The notes below the pieces were generated by a model. The model was not told where the DNA came from. It did no database searches and saw nothing but the letters and a program-made list of their open reading frames with translations. DNA of 64,000 bases from Brachyhypopomus gauderio (Eukaryota; Chordata; Actinopteri; Gymnotiformes; Hypopomidae): positions 27,153,915 to 27,217,914 of the forward strand of contig NC_135212.1 of NCBI RefSeq assembly GCF_052324685.1. The letters run 5' to 3'. The translations under genes were made by a program, and so were the position numbers. Shown piece after piece: positions 1,640 to 63,703 of this stretch. Numbering within the stretch: position 1 is the stretch's first letter; each line of letters begins with the position of its first letter.

Positions 1640-3330
1640 TACCGCAGTTTTTCAGCCGTACGTAATGTGTCGATATCACACTGTCACCTGTACGTAAGAT
1701 GTCAATATCAGTGCCATATGCAGAGCCGGCCCTGACCAATGTGGTGCCCTAGGCGAGATTTTGGTTGGTGCCCCCTGCATCATCAGTAATCTGCTTTTAC
1801 ACTCACACATACACTGCAAAGCTTTATGTTTTTGATAATTATTTTTTATTTTAGAACGAAAACAACCGTAAAATCAGTATTAAAGAAACAAATAAAAACC
1901 AAATGAATTATAAATATTACAGTATAACAAGTATATTTGTATATTTTTTATTTATAGTATATAGTATTATATATAGTATTATAAATATAGTATTATATTA
2001 TATATATAGTATTATATTATAGTATTATAGTATATTTTTTATTTATAACAAGAAATATATTGCTCAAAAAATATTTTAAAACTATTTTAGATAAAGAGAA
2101 CAACTTTTAAATATTAATAATAAATGAATATCGGTGTACTGAGGTGGAGGGATATGATGGTGTAAATATTAATAATAAATAAATATTGGTGTAGTGAGGT
2201 GGAGGGGATATGATGGTGTAAATATGAATAATAAATAAATATTGGTGTAGTGAGGTGGAGGGGATATGATGGTGTAATGCTGCTTCACTGGAAGGTGATA
2301 AGGTTGAGAATGTGTCTTCTGGTGGCCCAGGATGTGTAGAAACAGGATTTTAAAATATTTCAAAAGTGCATCTGAAAGGAACAGAGGAGTATATGTGTGT
2401 TTTAATATATATTTATTTTAAAAACTTGCTCAGCTAAGCTAATAATAGCACCTACTAGGATTGGGCAGTATGATGACAGTATTGTAAAATTGTGGCAATA
2501 TATTAACCATGTGACGTGACGCTACGTGCCAAATCTGTACTTCTGTAAATTTGGCGCATTCATTAAAAAGATCTGTGGGCGGGGTCAGCAGTTGGAGCTC
2601 ACTGATTGGTTATGGACTGGCGGTTTTCACTAGGATCATACAGAGGGGAAAAAGCCATAATGATGATGAGTGTTAGTTATGAAGCGAACTGGTTTCAAAG
2701 AAAAACACCACTGCTACAGATTGGCAGCATTTTGGATTTGTTTCAAATTAAAAGGGAGAGCCAGCAAACCTATATGAGTCAGTGTGTAAGATCTGCTTAC
2801 AAAATTCTCCGCCAAAGATGGAAACACATCAACATGCATTCTCATATAAAACGAAGCTCCCTTCAACAACATACAGTATAGTGTAATTCACCACATTATA
2901 TTACCTTTGGTTTCTTCCTCCTGTTTTCTCCCCACCACAGAACTTCGGTCTTTTTGGCATCTTTCCGGAGAGATGTCACTCACTCTGTGGCGTTGTTTTT
3001 TCCCCCACAGAGAAACAGTAACGAGGTGCGCAGAGCGAGCGGGGGGAGGGGGCTGCGCGGGTGATGGGTATCGTGTGCTATTATAATTATTAATTTGACT
3101 AATATTATTAAACAATGAAGTTTGCTTGTTTTCATATTTATGAATTGTTCATTTGTAAAAAATAAAAATAAATAAATTACGCATTCGCGCGAGCGCCCCC
3201 CTGGACAGCCAGCGCCCCTAGCATTTGCCTATATCGCCTAAGGAAGGGCCGGCCCTGGCTATATGCCACTGTCACCTGTACGTAAGATGTCAATGGCATA
3301 TATGCCAGCGTAACCTTTACGTAAGATGCC
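1640..3330. repeat. Short tandem repeat split by a transposon
   Basis: Variants of a unit containing ACGTAAGATGTCAAT or ACGTAATGTGTCGAT occur at about 1660, 1690, 3281 and 3318. The two halves are separated by the hAT element at 1721-3257, which inserted into the array. Confidence 0.5.
1721..3257. mobile_element. Non-autonomous hAT-like element (1537 bp)
   Basis: The left end CAGAGCCGGCCCTGACC and the inverted right end CAGGGCCGGCCC form hAT-style terminal inverted repeats (CAGRG). The flanks GCCATATG (1713-1720) and GCTATATG (3258-3265) are an 8-bp target duplication with one mismatch. The sub-terminal TAGGCGA also recurs in inverse near the right end. Inside, a unit of about 56 bp ending in GGATATGATGGTGTA is repeated three times between 2110 and 2278. 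A 91-codon frame at 2606-2881 is too short and degenerate to be a transposase, so the copy looks non-autonomous. Confidence 0.75.
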
Positions 3331-3362
3331 GATGCCTTTCCGTGTTATTACTACCGCTACTG

Positions 3363-3666: not shown

Positions 3667-4745
3667 ATGGGCGAAACAAGATTGGCGAGGCACATATTTT
3701 TGTGGTGTTTGTCTGCAATCTACATGTTCGCTTTTGCATCTCTTTATGTGCAAATTCCAGGTGAGATTTAATGTTCTGTCGCCATTGTGCTGGACAACTA
3801 TTAAACTCGCTGTGCGTCAGGAAGGAAGACTAAACTACTAATGATCTAGGAAAGTCAGCAAGCTAGTTAGGCACGCTAGTTGCATTCCCTGTTAAATAAG
3901 CCATGTATAAGTACTGTGGTAGCTAGATGGTTGCATATCAGATTCTCAGGTTTTATAGTTATGTGGTTGGGTGTAGTTGGTTTGAGCTGTTGCAGAAAAG
4001 TAGGTGTAATATCTAGTTGCAGTAGTTTAAAACCCATTTGGTAAGTTAAGGTGTAACTTAACTTAGTAAATTAGTAAAGCAAGCAGACGGTTTAGTTGCT
4101 TGCGAGGACTGGATTTTCTCACAGACCAGGTTATGAATTGATATCACAATTTTACAACTTGACCTGCAAACGGGTGTAATCGTAACTTCGTTAAAGTTGT
4201 CTCTTTTTTGCATTGCTCTGGTCTTAAATATGGCCTCAGATGGGATTGCATGTGAAATTTGTCTCAGCACGGCTCCGGTTAACGGTTTGTTACTGGTGAA
4301 CAGATTTATAATATACACATAATCCCCTCTAACCCCTGTTTTACTCCCGAGGCCTTTACGGTAACGAGGGCGTGTTGCCAGCTCGATGGACGCTCCGGCC
4401 GTCCGGTAAGAGTGTTTGGGAGCAGATACGGAACACCCCCACGCTGCTGTGGTTCGGGCCCAGACTCGGCTTGGACACTCAGCAGGGCATGGAGCTGCTC
4501 AGTCTGGCTGGAGCCGTGCTGAGCCTCGCGGCTACAGCATTGCCCGGGCTCAGGGACTGCAGAGTGTACCTGGTGCTGTGGATGCTGTACATGTCGCTCT
4601 ACCAGGTACCGCCTTATGCATCATGTTGCCAGCTGTGGTGCGAATAACTTTTGACTGCAAGCGCTCCCAGAGTACAGTCTCTCTTTCACAGTGTTGTTTC
4701 TGCAGGTGGGCCAGGTGTTCTTGTATTTCCAGTGGTGAGTAGAGA

Positions 4746-5745: not shown

Positions 5746-6776
5746 TGTGTGCGTGTGTGTGCGCGCTTGCGTGTTTGGGCAGGTCCTGCTCCAGGTGTTA
5801 ATTATCCTGTCTGGGAATTATAACTTCTTTAATTTGTTGACCATCACGCTATGTTTCTCATTGCTGGATGACCAGCATGTGAACTTTTGGCTGTGCCGAC
5901 ACGTCCCACATCCAGAAAGAAGTAGTACGTGCTGGTCTTACTTTTTGGTCTCTCCTTCCTACCCATTTACAGTCATGCTGCACACAAAAATGTTATTTTT
6001 TGATACGAACAAATAAAACAATAGCGTGCACCCTGTGCAGGCTTCATCACCCCATGCCCCCTGATCATGCTTGTGCAGGTTTGTGTTTCCAGAACTGTTA
6101 CTCGCCCTTTGCAGGCCTCCTGCAGACGGTCGTAGTGTGGGGGTGTGTGTTGCTGGAACTAGCCGTGTACGGAGTGCTGGGCTACTGGTCCGCCCACTAC
6201 TTCGATCTTAAAGTGGAATGGGACCAGAAAAGTATTTCCTCTAAAACAGGTTGACTTTTTGTCTTTTCTATCTCTCGTATATCATTCATCATAATAAGGT
6301 AATACATATTAATACTGTGTGCATGTTTTTCTTCCTTTCTTAGCATTCACACATTATGAGTTTAACAGATTTCTGAAGGCAGTGGTTGTGCCCAGTGTTT
6401 GGATGGGGGTTTTCTCCCTCACCTGGGAGATCGTCACTGCCATGTTCAAGTGAGTCCCGTTTTATTCATTACAAGTTCTACAGCAGTGAATAGAGATGCT
6501 ATTGCATTCATTCTCCTTTACTCACTTAAATGTGTAGGATGTGCAGTATCATCAAATACTGATGTGCAAAAGCCTAAGGCTCAGTTTTGCTTAGCCTCCA
6601 GTTACCAAAGTGTGTAGTGTTACAGACAGAAACAGTTCTATAAGCCGTGTGTGTGTGAAGCATGTGCTGTTCGTTCTTTCAGAAGTGTGTGTGAAGGGTG
6701 TGTGTGTGCGCGTGTGTTTCAGGAGTGTGTGTGAAGGGTGTGTTTTCTGTGTGTGTTTCAGGAGTGCGTGAAGGGG

Positions 6777-6829
<53 letters not shown>

Positions 6830-9578
6830 TGTGTTTCAGGAGTGTGTGTGAAGGGTGTGTTTCAGGAGTGCGCGTCTGAAGGGTGTGTTCTGTGTGTGTG
6901 TGTGTGTGTTTCAGGAGTGCGCGTGTGAAGGGTGTGTTCTGTGTGTGTGTTTCAGGAGTGCGTGTGAAGGGTGTGTTCTGTGTGTGTGTGTGTTTCAGGA
7001 GTGCGTGTGTGAAGGGTGTGTTCTCTGTGTGTGTGTTTCAGGAGTGCGTGTGTGAAGGGTGTGTTCTCTGTGTGTGTGTTTCAGGAGTGCGTGTGTGAAG
7101 GGTGTGTTCTCTGTGTGTGTGTTTCAGGAGTGCGCGTCTGAAGGGTGTGTTCTGTGTGTGTGTGTGTTTCAGGAGTGCGCGTCTGAAGGGTGTGTTCTGT
7201 GTGTGTGTGTGTTTCAGGAGTGCGCGTCTGAAGGGTGTGTTCTGTGTGTGTGTTTCAGGAGTGCGCGTGTGAAGGGTGTGTTCTCTGTGTGTGTGTGTTT
7301 CAGGAGTGCGTGTGTGAAGGGTGTGTTCTGTGTGTGTGTGTTTCAGGAGTGCGTGTGTGAAGGGTGTGTTCTCTGTGTGTGTGTTTCAGGAGTGCGTGTG
7401 TGAAGGGTGTGTTCTCTGTGTGTGTGTTTCAGGAGTGCGTGTGTGAAGGGTGTGTTCTCTGTGTGTGTGTGTGTTTCAGGAGTGCGTGTGTGAAGGGTGT
7501 GCTCTGGCGTCTGTGGGTCACGGTGCAGTGGGCCATCTTCGCTACAGCTGCAGTCGCCATGTTTGCCATTAGTTTGGTCAGTAGCCATGGTAACATTCTG
7601 GCAGCATCATACTCTTTATCTTTTACAGAACACATTTTTCACACTTTCGTTGTGTTTCTTTGATGTGTGTGCAGGTTCCTTACACCTACATAGAGTATGA
7701 GGCAAACAGCAACCTCTGGCCAGGGGTGCGGAAAGCGTTTGAACTGACTGACCGCTACCAACTGGTCAACTCGTATGGTCTCTTCAGGCGGATGACTGGG
7801 GTCGGGGGTCGTCCCGAGGTCATCGTCGAGGGCAGCATGGATGGCAGCACATGGACGGTCTGCACGTGATTCCAGACGCCCATACTCACGCAGTCTGTGC
7901 TGGTTTAGACTGGTTCTAGCTCACGCAGCCCGTGCTGGTTTAGACTGGTTCTAGCTCACGCAGGCTGTAGCAGCTTGGTTAGGCTTCATCAGCGCAGGTG
8001 TGAGGTGCCGTTGTCTCTGAGCACGAGTCTGAATCAGGATCAGAATGAATGACGATGTATACGCTGGTTTTGATATTATGTTTTTGAAATATTCTGAGGT
8101 TAATTAGTATAAAACGGCTGTCCAAAGTGCGGCCCTCTGTTGACCACAGCGTTTTATATTTCACCAGAAGATGGCAGTAGACTACAAAAAAGCTATTTTA
8201 TACTTCACCAGAAGATGGAAGTGTATACTATACCCCCCCACATGTTCACCTCACCAAATCTTTTCCTCACTGCAAGTTTGGACGCCCCTGTTATAAAACA
8301 TACAATCTGTATAGCAGAGAGTAAATTGTGAGGACAGGCTTTCTGTTCCACCCGTCCCCAACGCACATTCACTCGCACTGTTCAACAGGAGATCGAGTTC
8401 ATGTACAAGCCGGGGAATAGGAGCGCAGCGCCCCCGGTGGTGACTCCGCACCAGCCTAGACTGGACTGGCAGATGTGGTTTGCGGCACTGGGACCCCACA
8501 CACAGAGCCCCTGGTTCAGCAGCCTCGTCCACCGCCTCCTGCAGGGGAAGAGAGACGGTGAGCGCCCCCAGGTGGCGAGCGGCCACAGTGCATGCTAGTG
8601 CTTTTGGACACTGGAATTAATAATGCGTTTAATGTATTTCCCCATTTGTGTGTATGTACATGTTTTACAGTGATAAAGCTCATTCAGAGGGACGAGTCTC
8701 ACTATCCATTCAGTCAGCAGCCACCAGTGTACATCCGCGCTCACCGCTACAAGTACTGGTTCACCAAGCCCAAGGAGGACGGGTGAGTGTTGGGCCTGGT
8801 GTCATCACACGGCGCTGTGAGGACGATGTGCAGGAGTGATCTGTCTTTGAAATTTTAATCATTGCATGCAAAGTCTTGCGTACGTGTAAGATGAGATTTA
8901 GCCTGGTGTCACAACTACAGATCAGCATGTGTATCAAGGTGTGTAACTGCTTTGGTAGGTTGTTGCCTCACAGGTGGTGGAGAAGGGTGTATGTGGAGGA
9001 GTTTTACCCCGTAGTCCACCTCGGAGATGCTTTCCTCGACCACATTCTCACTCATCATGGTCTGAAGGTACAAGTGACGAGAGAGAGTGACGGGAGATGC
9101 TGCAGCACAGTATCATCACATTTGTACTTCTTATTTTGGAAAACGTGTGTGTGTGTGTGTGTGTGCATGGCAGGATAAGGGTCCTGTGCGGCGCGGCTCG
9201 GACGCTTGGATCCCACGGATGTTGAGGTGTGTTGGGGAACATGTGCGAGACGTTCCTGCTCCGCTCTTATTGTGGACGCTCTTCAGTTCGGCAGCTACGA
9301 TATGTCTCGTCAACTGTCTCTGTTCACGCTCGCCACCCCACGACCACCCACGGGCTACCAGCCCTCCTCCACGACACACACCCGAGGAGGAGGAGGAGGA
9401 GGCAAAGAGCGGAGGAGAAGTGGACAAAGAGGCGAAGGGAGAACATAATGATGAGGGTGGAGAGCAGGAAGAGGATCTAGTGAATGAAGAGGAGGATGAG
9501 GATGGTGAAGATGATGACTACAGTGGAGAAGGAGAGGAACCCTCCCAAGAGACAGGACACCTAAGAGAACGCAAATGA
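3667..9578 (+). CDS. LMF2: Lipase maturation factor 2, complete, 14 coding exons
   Basis: Exons: 3667-3760, 4352-4605, 4706-4734, 5147-5337, 5427-5605, 5783-5924, 6115-6249, 6344-6449, 7480-7576, 7675-7857, 8389-8557, 8671-8782, 8974-9067, 9174-9578. They join in phase to 729 codons (human protein about 707). LMF proteins are multi-pass ER membrane proteins; LMF1 is needed to fold lipoprotein lipase, and LMF2 is its paralogue with a less certain role. Visible here: an N-terminal hydrophobic helix, many Trp-rich membrane segments in exons 2-9, and the conserved lumenal block in exons 10-13 ([24 protein letters not shown]). Exon 3 is a 29-nt microexon. The C-terminus has one more hydrophobic segment and then a very acidic tail. 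Intron 8 is swollen by a repeat built from its own acceptor. Confidence 0.93.
4748..4830. repeat. (CT)n microsatellite in LMF2 intron 3
   Basis: About 41 CT units begin 14 bp after the exon 3 donor, followed by (GTCT)-type repeats to about 4880. Confidence 0.95.
6676..7500 (+). repeat. Minisatellite made of the LMF2 exon 9 splice acceptor
   Basis: A unit of about 43-45 bp, (GT)n-TTTCAG-GAGTGCGTGTGTGAAGGG-TGTGTTCT, is repeated about 18 times in intron 8. The last copy is the real acceptor (AG at 7478-7479) and the first 20 or so bases of exon 9. Each copy therefore carries a TTTCAG/GAGTG junction. Units vary (GCGCGTCTG and GCGTGTGTG types). Confidence 0.9.
7890..7975. repeat. Short tandem repeat in LMF2 intron 10
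   Basis: About 2.3 copies of a 36-bp unit containing GCTGGTTTAGACTGGTTC. A second small duplication (TTCACCAGAAGATGG) occurs at about 8160 and 8204. Confidence 0.7.
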
Positions 9579-32532: not shown

Positions 32533-34652
32533 CACAGATTTGACTCAGCCTCTTTCAATCACTCTTTAAATATTCCTATCCTTCGGTGTGTATGAGTTAG
32601 TACTATAGATGCTCCAGAATATCTGATGTTGAGAGTCACTCAAACCCAGGCCACTCACACACAGTATTATGTACCATCCACCCCTCCTCCGGGCAGCTTA
32701 TACCCCATCCACCCCTCCTCCAGGCAACTTATCTTACCCCATCCACCCCTCCTCCGGGCAGCTTATACCCCATCCACCCCTCCTCCGGGCAGCTTATACC
32801 CCATCCACCCCTCCTCCAGGCAACTTATCTTACCCCATCCACCCCTCCTCTGGGCAGCTTATACCCCATCCACCCCTCCTCCAGGCAACTTATCTTACCC
32901 CATCCACCCCTCCTCCAGGCAACTTGTCTTACCCCATCCATCCTTCCTCCAGGCAACTTATCTTACCCCATCCACCCCTTCTCCGGGCAGCTTATACCCC
33001 ATCCACCCCTCCTCCAGGCAACTTATCTTACCCCATCCACCCCTCCTCCGGGCAACTTATCTTACCCCATCCACCCCTCCTCCAGGCAACTTATCTTACC
33101 CCATCCACCCCTCCTCCAGGCAACTTATCTTACCCCATCCACCCCTCCTCCGGGCAGCTTATACCCCATCCACCCCTCCTCCAGGCAACTTGTCTTACCC
33201 CATCCACCCCTCCTCAAGGCAACTTATCTTACCCCATCCACCCCTCCTCCAGGCAACTTGTCTTACCCCATCCACCCCTCCTCAAGGCAACTTATCTTAC
33301 CCCATCCACCCCTCCTCAAGGCAACTTATCTTACCCCATCCACCCCTCCTCTGGGCAGCTTATACCCCATCCACCCCTCCTCCAGGCAACTTATCTTACC
33401 CCATCCACCCCTCCTCCAGGCAACTTGTCTTACCCCATCCACCCCTCCTCCAGGCAACTTATCTTACCCCATCCACCCCTCCTCAAGGCAACTTATCTTA
33501 CCCCATCCACCCCTCCTCCAGGCAACTTGTCTTACCCCATCCACCCCTCCTCAAGGCAACTTATCTTACCCCATCCACCCCTCCTCAAGGCAACTTATCT
33601 TACCCCATCCACCCCTCCTCTGGGCAGCTTATACCCCATCCACCCCTCCTCCAGGCAACTTATCTTACCCCATCCACCCCTCCTCCAGGCAACTTGTCTT
33701 ACCCCATCCACCCCTCCTCCAGGCAACTTATCTTACCCCATCCACCCCTCCTCCAGGCAACTTATCTTACCCCATCCACCCCTCCTCCGGGCAGCTTATA
33801 CCCCATCCACCCCTCCTCCAGGCAACTTATCTTACCCCATCCACCCCTCCTCCGGGCAGCTTATACCCCATCCACCCCTCCTCCAGGCAACTTATCTTAC
33901 CCCATCCACCCCTCCTCTGGGCAGCTTACCCCTCCTTTTTCCTCACTTGCTCACATACATAATGATAAATTCACTAATTCTAATTGACTAAATTCTAACT
34001 GGCATACACAACATCATGAGTTTGAAACTATAATTTTTTTAAATTACAGTTCAAGTTTACCAGTAAACAGAATCATTTTAGACATTTCTGAGAATCCCAG
34101 GTGCTGTATTTAAATAAATATACATCTTATATTATAAGATTGTTCCTGCATGGTCATTTCAAACATGACAGCAGCACTTGTTCTACCTGTCCTGATGGGG
34201 AAGACGTTGTCGTCTGTGATGAGGTCCTGGATGTAGGACATGGCGTAGTCGGCGTACAGCGGTGCTGAGCACTTCAGCTTCTTACCCTGTTCATCTGTCC
34301 ACTCGTACACCCTGCACAGCACAGCACAGCACACAGACCTTAGGCAATGCATGACGTGCACGTGCACACAGGCCTTAGGCAAGCTGGGTCCAGTTCTGAT
34401 TAAATGGCACTAAAATTCTATCATTTCTATACCAATATTCTAATTTCTATACTAATTCTATACCATGAGCTATATTCATGTTTTGTGATGTGTGTGCGCA
34501 TTCGTACTCCTCACTTGTTTCCTGGGCCTCTGGCTGTCGGGCAGGTTGTTGAGGTGCAGAATTCTGAAAGGGCACTAGACAACAGGGTGATGTTCTGAAA
34601 GAACGAGATGGCTGAAAAGGGAGAGAGATAGAGATGATTAAAACACACACAC

Positions 34653-61749: not shown

Positions 61750-62710
61750 GTGACTGTTCCCAGAGCCCCCCGGGGCTTGGTCCTGCCCACCTCAGACCCT
61801 GTGGTCCTGCGCATCACAAACCCTGTGGTCCTGCTCACCTCAAAACCCTGTGGTCCTGCTCACCTCAAAACCCTGTGGTCTTGCCCACCTTAAACCCTGT
61901 GATCCTGCCCACCTCAGACCCTGTGGTCCTGCCCACCTCAAACCCTGTGATCCTGCCCACCTCAGACCCTGTGGTCCTGCCCACCTCAAACCCTGTGATC
62001 CTGCCCACCTCAGACCCTGTGGTCCTGCCCACCTCAAAACCCTGTGGTCCTGCTCACCTCAAAAGCCTGTGGTGTTGCTCACCTCAAAACCCTGTGATCC
62101 TGCCCACCTCAGACCCTGTGGTCCTGTCCACCTCAAACCCTGTGGTCCTGCCCACTTCAAACCCTGTGATCCTGCCCACCTCAGACCCTGTGGTCCTGCC
62201 CACTTTAAACCCTGTGATCCTGCCCACTTTAAACCCTGTGGTCCTGCCCAACTCAAACCCTGTGATCCTGCCCACCTCAGACCCTGTGGTCCTGCCCACC
62301 TCAGACCCTGTGGTCCTGCCCAACTCAAACCCTGTGGTCCTGCCCATCACAAACCCTGTGGTCCTGCCCACCTCAGACACTGTGGTCCTGCCCACCTCAA
62401 ACCCTGTGGTCCTGCCCACCACAAACCCTGTGGTCCCGCCCACCCACCTCAAACCCTGTGGTCCTGCCCACCTCAGACCCTGTGGTTCCGCCCACCTCAA
62501 ACCCTGTGGTCCCGTCCACTTCAAACCCTGTGGTCCCGCCCACCCACCTCAAACCCTGTGGTCCTGCCCACCCACCTCAAACCCTGTGGTCCTGCCCACC
62601 TCAAACCCTGTGGTCCCGCCCACCTCAAACCCTGTGGTCCCGCCCACCTCAAACCCTGTGGTCCTGCCCACCTCAAACCTTGTGGTCCTGTCCACCTCAA
62701 ACCCCTCATG
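61750..62710. repeat. 24-bp minisatellite upstream of the unrecognised gene
   Basis: Nearly 40 copies of a 24-bp unit, CCTGTGGTCCTGCCCACCTC plus AAAC or AGAC. Variants GATCCTG/GGTCCTG and CTCAAA/CTCAGA alternate in blocks, giving a higher-order pattern. Because 24 is a multiple of three, long open frames (over 300 codons) run through both strands. It begins about 100 bp outside the probable first exon. Confidence 0.93.
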
Positions 62711-63703
62711 CTACGTCTCTATTTCATTTTAAGAAGATACATAGTGACTCTGAGAGAATGCTGTTTAATATTCAAATACACAGTGAATCAGATTGCAGTG
62801 ATAAAAATACAGTGAATATTAGCAAAAAGTATCAGTGCAATAGCAGAGAAATGCCCGTTCAATAACAGTGTTCCATAAAAATACATCATATATATATATA
62901 TAAAAGTAAAATATATAAAAGTATTACAAATGTAATATTTTCCTGTGGTTAGTAAATAAAGGTAAATAAAGCTCTTGATCCTTTTTTCTGGGATCTCTTC
63001 AAGAAATAACACAGTGCTTCTAGATTTTTTCATGAAGATCCACTATATCTCTGCTTTACACATGTAGTCTTATTTCAGATGGGGTGGCAATGACTTACGA
63101 AAACAGAGCTGCACAGCAATGACCAAAATACAATATGGTAAATATATTGCTACATATTGCAACAACCATATGGCGTGTCTGGGCTCCGTGGTGAGAAACC
63201 AACGTTACCCGGTTAAAGAACATCTGGAGTGTGTGAGACTGCCCAGGATACTCATAGCTCACACGTACACATATACACACACGTGCACATATACACAAAC
63301 ACACACACACACACACACACGTACACAACACACACAAAACACACACACACGTGATTTGTTTTAACACTCATTTGCATATTAGTTTTCATTCATTTCAGTA
63401 TTACAAAGGCCAACATTAATATAAAGAACAATAAAATGTGCAGATCTAAATATTGAAATATTGCTAAATTATTTAGAATATTGCCAGATATCACCAGCTA
63501 ATCACCAGAGATGAGCGGCACAGCGTATAACTCTGCTTGATCAAAAATAGCACCATCATCAGTGTAAAACCACTATAATTTTTACTTTTAGACATGCAGT
63601 GCAGGTAGAGCAAAGAAAAAGACAGATGATCCCTGAGATGTTCAGGCGCTGGTGCAGCTAACACTCAGAGTGTGTGGGGGTGATAATGGTGAGCACCAGG
63701 CGC
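62711..63703. other. AT-rich region and probable 3' UTR of the last gene
   Basis: Holds a short (TA)n at about 62888-62902 and (CA)n runs at about 63269-63350. No gene seen. Confidence 0.4.

Follow-up and report, generated by a model that had tools for sequence, protein, structure and literature searches.

Several tandem repeats are known to carry splice sites of the gene in which they lie. A VNTR in human ABCA7, for instance, is linked to the risk of Alzheimer's disease, and a minisatellite in a human interferon-induced gene, said to be IFI6/6-16, reportedly supplies several splice donors (Turri, Cuin and Porter, 1995). CFTR exon 9 is reported to have a (UG)m-U(n) tract with a link to TDP-43 (Buratti, 2001), and Zhuo et al. 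(2007) are said to have described introns from tandem arrays, in which the tandem copies hold the splice sites. Two further classes of repeated or composite site are more narrowly delimited: NAGNAG tandem acceptors are by definition a few nucleotides apart, and a recursive splice site is by definition an acceptor AG immediately followed by a GT donor. The ABCA7 repeat, as far as the consulted part of its report describes it, lies in intron 18 and has a 25-bp unit that begins at the donor GT of exon 18; it is strongly length-variable, retention of one unit with a frameshift is seen in cDNA, and skipping of exon 19 increases with the length of the VNTR (PMC5954066).

The array described here forms the last 797 bases of intron 8 of LMF2, where 18 tandem units are followed by a 19th TTTCAG that opens exon 9. 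It resembles the ABCA7 VNTR in that the repeat starts at a splice site and the units carry a spare site; however, ABCA7 represents the donor (GT) side, whereas LMF2 represents the acceptor side, as a mirror image (PMC5954066). Exon sequence is included in the LMF2 unit, whereas none is mentioned for the ABCA7 unit in the part of that report consulted, and the ABCA7 case has RNA and population data, whereas the LMF2 case is known from the sequence of one assembly (PMC5954066). As in the ABCA7/IFI6 kind of repeat, each LMF2 unit duplicates a genuine splice site of the gene that contains it (18 copies and the true site), and the run continues unbroken into the true exon junction, but the multiplied site is a 3' acceptor instead of a donor. 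The IFI6 minisatellite, too, reportedly presents extra copies of a splice site of the gene in which it lies, on the donor side. CFTR exon 9, as reported, shares with LMF2 exon 9 a UG-rich tract just 5' of the 3' splice site and the TDP-43 link, although the former has a single acceptor and the latter has 19. Moreover, the tandem arrays of Zhuo et al. were reportedly proposed to give new introns, whereas LMF2 presents an existing intron with added spare acceptors. These acceptors are 26–78 nt apart, in contrast to the few nucleotides of NAGNAG sites, and the bases directly after the upstream AG are GAGTG in 17 of the 18 units and AAGTG in one, unlike the immediate GT of a recursive site. In the literature searched, whose coverage leaves out most subscription journals, no acceptor-side splice-site minisatellite was recognised, and the parts consulted of two articles contain no such case (PMC3039753, PMC2812944). 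By this comparison, the LMF2 array can be regarded as the acceptor-side counterpart of the known donor-bearing minisatellites.

Anatomy of the LMF2 array

Conceptual splicing of 14 coding exons on the forward strand, between positions 3667 and 9578 of the window (the whole 64-kb stretch of DNA that was analysed), yields a single open frame of 2190 nt and 729 residues, and the spliced protein matches Pfam LMF1 (2.5e-72) and LMF1_C (1.4e-54). The product is lipase maturation factor 2, an ER membrane protein. The minus-strand neighbours of the gene match MIOX and the calcitonin/CGRP family, which fits the vertebrate gene order LMF2-MIOX-ADM2. The genes present and the character of the repeats suggest that the DNA comes from a fish. 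Exon 8 (6344–6449) ends in phase 2 at a GTGAGT donor, intron 8 extends from 6450 to 7479, and exon 9 (7480–7576, 97 nt) follows the acceptor AG at 7478–7479; joining exon 8 to exon 9 at 7480 keeps the LMF2 frame and places the junction at Lys377, between the hydrophobic stretches 354–372 and 384–410. Of the bacterial LMF homologues, at 80 loci, 68 had a usable frame; in the first 45 alignment rows viewed, query included, most of the exon 8 segment is missing from the bacterial sequences, so that the start of exon 9 is not confirmable from them; the viral contigs searched gave no match. Further downstream, the apparent donor of exon 10 (GTCTGC, 7858–7863) is weak, with a score of 1.9 on an approximate matrix, and the protein frame agrees with it.

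The 18 units of the array (6683–7479, forward strand) each consist of an exon-9-like start, most commonly GAGTGCGTGTGTGAAGGGTGTG, followed by (GT)n-TTTCAG, and the exon part of the unit corresponds to bases 1–26 of exon 9. Between 6677 and 7484, there are 18 exact occurrences of TTTCAGGAGTG and another with a single mismatch, which together account for the 18 upstream copies and the true site; with up to one mismatch, the whole window holds 21 matches, compared with a mean of 1.8 and a largest count of 5 in dinucleotide shuffles. Unit lengths range from 26 to 78 bp, with 43 bp in seven units and 43–45 bp in ten. Over its initial 26 bases, each unit shares 20–25 identities with the start of exon 9, and the seven units with 25 identities are units 8–10 and 15–18; the least exon-like are units 1 and 3 (21 and 20 identities), at the intron end of the array. 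TRF places the end of the repeat at 7505/7506, 26–27 bases inside exon 9, and finds the array continuous with the true junction. When the array is cut again at TGAAG, TTTCAG is present in 19 of 19 intervals as well, so its count is not a product of the choice of cutting point. The initial annotation had described a splice acceptor and exon start repeated about 18 times in LMF2 intron 8, a unit composed of (GT)n-TTTCAG and the start of exon 9, and a last acceptor that alone leads into the true exon; gene, intron, unit content, number of extra acceptors and the in-frame position of the last one are all borne out.

Directly upstream of unit 1, a degenerate copy seems to be present (6642–6682), which ends in the first TTTCAG and aligns to unit 9 with 31 identities, 7 mismatches and 8 gaps; the flank that contains it has a local score of 18.5, which is above the 15.5 that the best of 500 base shuffles attains. 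Within the array, a block of six units is duplicated: units 5–10 (6866–7127) and units 13–18 (7218–7479) align with 252 identities, no mismatches and 20 gap positions, the gaps lying in the GT/CT tracts. Because the two blocks differ only by gaps of this kind, their pattern is the one that repeat turnover would leave. The same absence of substitutions, together with the difficulty of assembling repeats of this sort, is what favours another reading, namely that identical blocks were misassembled and the true copy number, taken here from one assembly of one individual, differs from 18. We consider such an artefact improbable, since the 5' units vary in length and sequence, unlike a simple stutter, and it would in any case put in doubt at most the copy number and not the array.

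Origin of the array and choice among its acceptors

On the reading that we consider probable, the minisatellite was seeded by slippage, the last acceptor is mainly used, and some splicing leaks into unproductive mRNA. Replication slippage or unequal exchange across the GT-rich intron-exon junction of LMF2 would have duplicated this junction, the ends of the exchange lying in the (GT)n tract of the intron and in the 26 GT-rich bases with which exon 9 begins, and blocks of units would then have been duplicated in turn. The result would be 18 spare 3' splice-site modules, each with a GT-rich tract, TTTCAG and an exon start, that arose as by-products. Exon 8 would most probably be joined mainly to the last AG at 7478–7479, which gives the shortest exon 9, whereas minor use of upstream AGs would give mRNAs with premature stops that are candidates for nonsense-mediated decay, and possibly one in-frame form with 30 additional residues. 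The last acceptor, which keeps the gene working, would be the sole copy that selection must hold, and the other copies would be tolerated.

The reading frames limit what the upstream acceptors can contribute. Entry at one of them adds 47–797 nt to the mRNA, a length divisible by three in two of the 18 cases, AG 7040–7041 (+438) and AG 7388–7389 (+90). Although the initial annotation held that the array is free of stops in some frames, the three frames contain 8, 4 and 6 stops, so this statement is wrong and no open frame runs through the array as it would through a coding tandem repeat. Its suggestion of a series of variable-length insertions falls with it: entry at 17 of the 18 upstream acceptors brings a premature stop 83–842 nt ahead of the exon 9/10 junction, and only AG 7388–7389 leaves the LMF2 frame open. 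Under the usual decay rule, these 17 forms are candidates for nonsense-mediated decay. As nearly all of the extra acceptors would give broken messages, the array seems to have arisen by chance growth of a repeat and not as a device for protein diversity. The latter explanation, in which upstream acceptors supply LMF2 with insertions of variable length, is very improbable in our estimation; it can draw on the one open form, whose 30 inserted residues include eight Cys, on the position of Lys377 between two hydrophobic stretches, and on 19 of the 168 acceptor-donor pairs using internal donors, which would give an open in-frame pseudo-exon. However, the open form depends on the last two units being 43 and 47 bp long, so that any single GT slip would be expected to close its frame.

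Splice-site strength was scored with rough weight matrices, and on these the true acceptor scores 7.5 and ranks seventh among 13 LMF2 acceptors. At least the same score is reached by 15 of the 18 copies, the first of which is the highest (11.0), and the branch-point candidates upstream of the true acceptor have low scores (2.4 for the A at 34 nt and 3.2 for the A at 49 nt). Since the last AG is no stronger than most of its copies and the branch points are weak, the case for its dominance is made by exon length and by the gene being open. Taken by itself, the sequence thus gives no reason for the last AG to win. The array also carries 17 donor-like AGG/GTGTGT sites, which are not the gene's own donor and score 7.0 against 4.7 for the donor of exon 9 on the approximate matrix, and GT/TG runs of five or more repeats are present in 16 of the 18 units; TDP-43 prefers at least five UG repeats, according to the consulted part of a review (PMC6121432).

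Strong copies, internal donors and UG tracts together provide the material for an alternative in which the array acts as a brake that depends on copy number: the spare acceptors, the donor-like sites and the UG tracts, through binding of the TDP-43 type, would divert a graded share of the transcripts through unproductive splicing or skipping of exon 9, and array length would set the output of LMF2. Skipping of the 97-nt exon would shift the LMF2 frame, and a precedent exists in human ABCA7, where a longer donor-bearing VNTR goes with more skipping of exon 19 (PMC5954066). However, the splice scores come from approximate matrices and all the support is drawn from sequence, and no greater constancy is evident in the acceptor motif than in the remainder of the unit; we therefore regard such a brake as unlikely, if less so than the other alternatives considered. 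When the array is cut at TTTCAG, TGAAGGGTGTG, which lies outside the splice site, is present in 17 of 18 units, compared with TTTCAG in 19 of 19 TGAAG-cut intervals, with no clear difference between the two.

A combined version, to which we give little credence, is that the array works as a splicing rheostat, whose length sets the share of LMF2 pre-mRNA sent to decay and in which GT slippage by 2 bp within one or other of the last two units would toggle the isoform with 30 additional residues. If this were true, the LMF2 array would be a naturally amplified 3' splice site that tunes splicing by its length. The presence of 19 near-identical acceptors in one intron of a natural gene offers a ready test of how the spliceosome chooses among equal 3' splice sites, whether by taking the first AG, the one nearest to the exon, or by exon length.

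Related words and arrays in the genome

The assembly's own genome (796.5 Mb, 840 contigs) was searched for words repeated at the spacing of the array, with three words required per match; the matches are overlapping triples and not arrays, so that one long array may count many times. The acceptor word TGTTTCAGG was compared with a control word that differs in one letter and has the acceptor destroyed, TGTTTCTGG, and reversed words served as a second control. The one-letter control looks fair because, singly, the shorter words GTTTCAG (16) and GTTTCTG (15) are about equally frequent in the window outside the array on both strands. Genome-wide, the acceptor word gave 319 matches (209 + 110) and its reversal 29 (9 + 20), whereas the control word gave 519 (376 + 143) and its reversal 177 (50 + 127), corresponding to forward/reversed ratios of 11 and 2.9. 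For TGTGTTTCAGG, 135 + 48 matches were obtained, compared with 1 + 0 for the reversed pattern. On C1–C5, which both listings cover, the acceptor word forms six distinct arrays and the control word 12, as counted by eye. Selective amplification of acceptors was accordingly not adopted as an explanation: raw and array counts speak against it, the reversed-word ratio speaks for it, and the two controls disagree. Since the acceptor word does not exceed the control word in arrays, preferential amplification of acceptors in this genome is not shown, and the counts suggest that such arrays arise without special selection in a minisatellite-rich genome.

Among the matches of TGTTTCAGG listed, at least 21 off-locus arrays were distinguished by eye, and the 3' flanks of 16 were read. 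In one of these (L165, C5:7931017-7931093), three TTTCAG, spaced 34 bp apart, run directly into an exon with the Nudix box of NUDT5, which matches Pfam NUDIX at 3.2e-8 and NUDT5 in the PDB at about 2e-8 (region G000:C5:7930900-7931800). Two flanks (L169, L171) fell short of the array end, and the remaining 13 showed no recognisable exon directly after the last unit in three-frame translations inspected by eye. One of the 13 (L164) has its array some 80 bp before a possible last exon with an acceptor of its own, the peptide of which gave no match in Pfam. Among the arrays with flanks read, LMF2 is thus the clear large case and NUDT5 a small second one.

A dispersed-repeat origin of the LMF2 array was also considered and set aside. 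The best off-locus likeness (L089, C21:3134728-3135332, unit TTTCAGGTCTGCGTAAGTGAAGGTGTG...) has a local score of 29.5, where 1000 dinucleotide shuffles reach no more than 27, but as it was chosen as the best match in a 796-Mb genome, this score is no proof for or against a common origin with the array. Three or more copies of TGTTTCAGGnnTG are present in two of 39 off-locus places (L089–L127), namely L089 and L114. The L089 array (2729–3332 of that locus; G000:C21:3134728-3135332) contains 23 TTTCAG with a spacing that mostly alternates between 27 and 17–35 bp, and has GTAAGT in the 27-bp part; the opposite strand carries a RING-finger exon at a distance of about 3 kb. At L114/L130 (G000:C258, about 62810-63150), the unit (GT)n-TTTCAGG-[GT]C-[TG]-GGAAGAGAGG is present four times, and no exon was recognised behind the copies.

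Of nine arrays examined within the window, two have a unit AG that scores at least 7.5, namely the LMF2 array and a 34-bp array (10.3). In the latter (32674–33928), which comprises some 38 copies, certain units contain an acceptor-like CCTCCTCCAG/GC and others CCGGG, and no recognisable exon adjoins the array. A 24-bp array (61778–62704), also of about 38 copies, lies within a stop-free frame of 353 codons on the forward strand (61754–62812), which has no Pfam match at 0.01. Elsewhere in the genome, a single (GT)n-TTTCAG stands ahead of a TTC37-like open frame (L117), in which the match starts 15 residues in; this suggests that the (GT)n-TTTCAG context is in use as an acceptor elsewhere in this genome.
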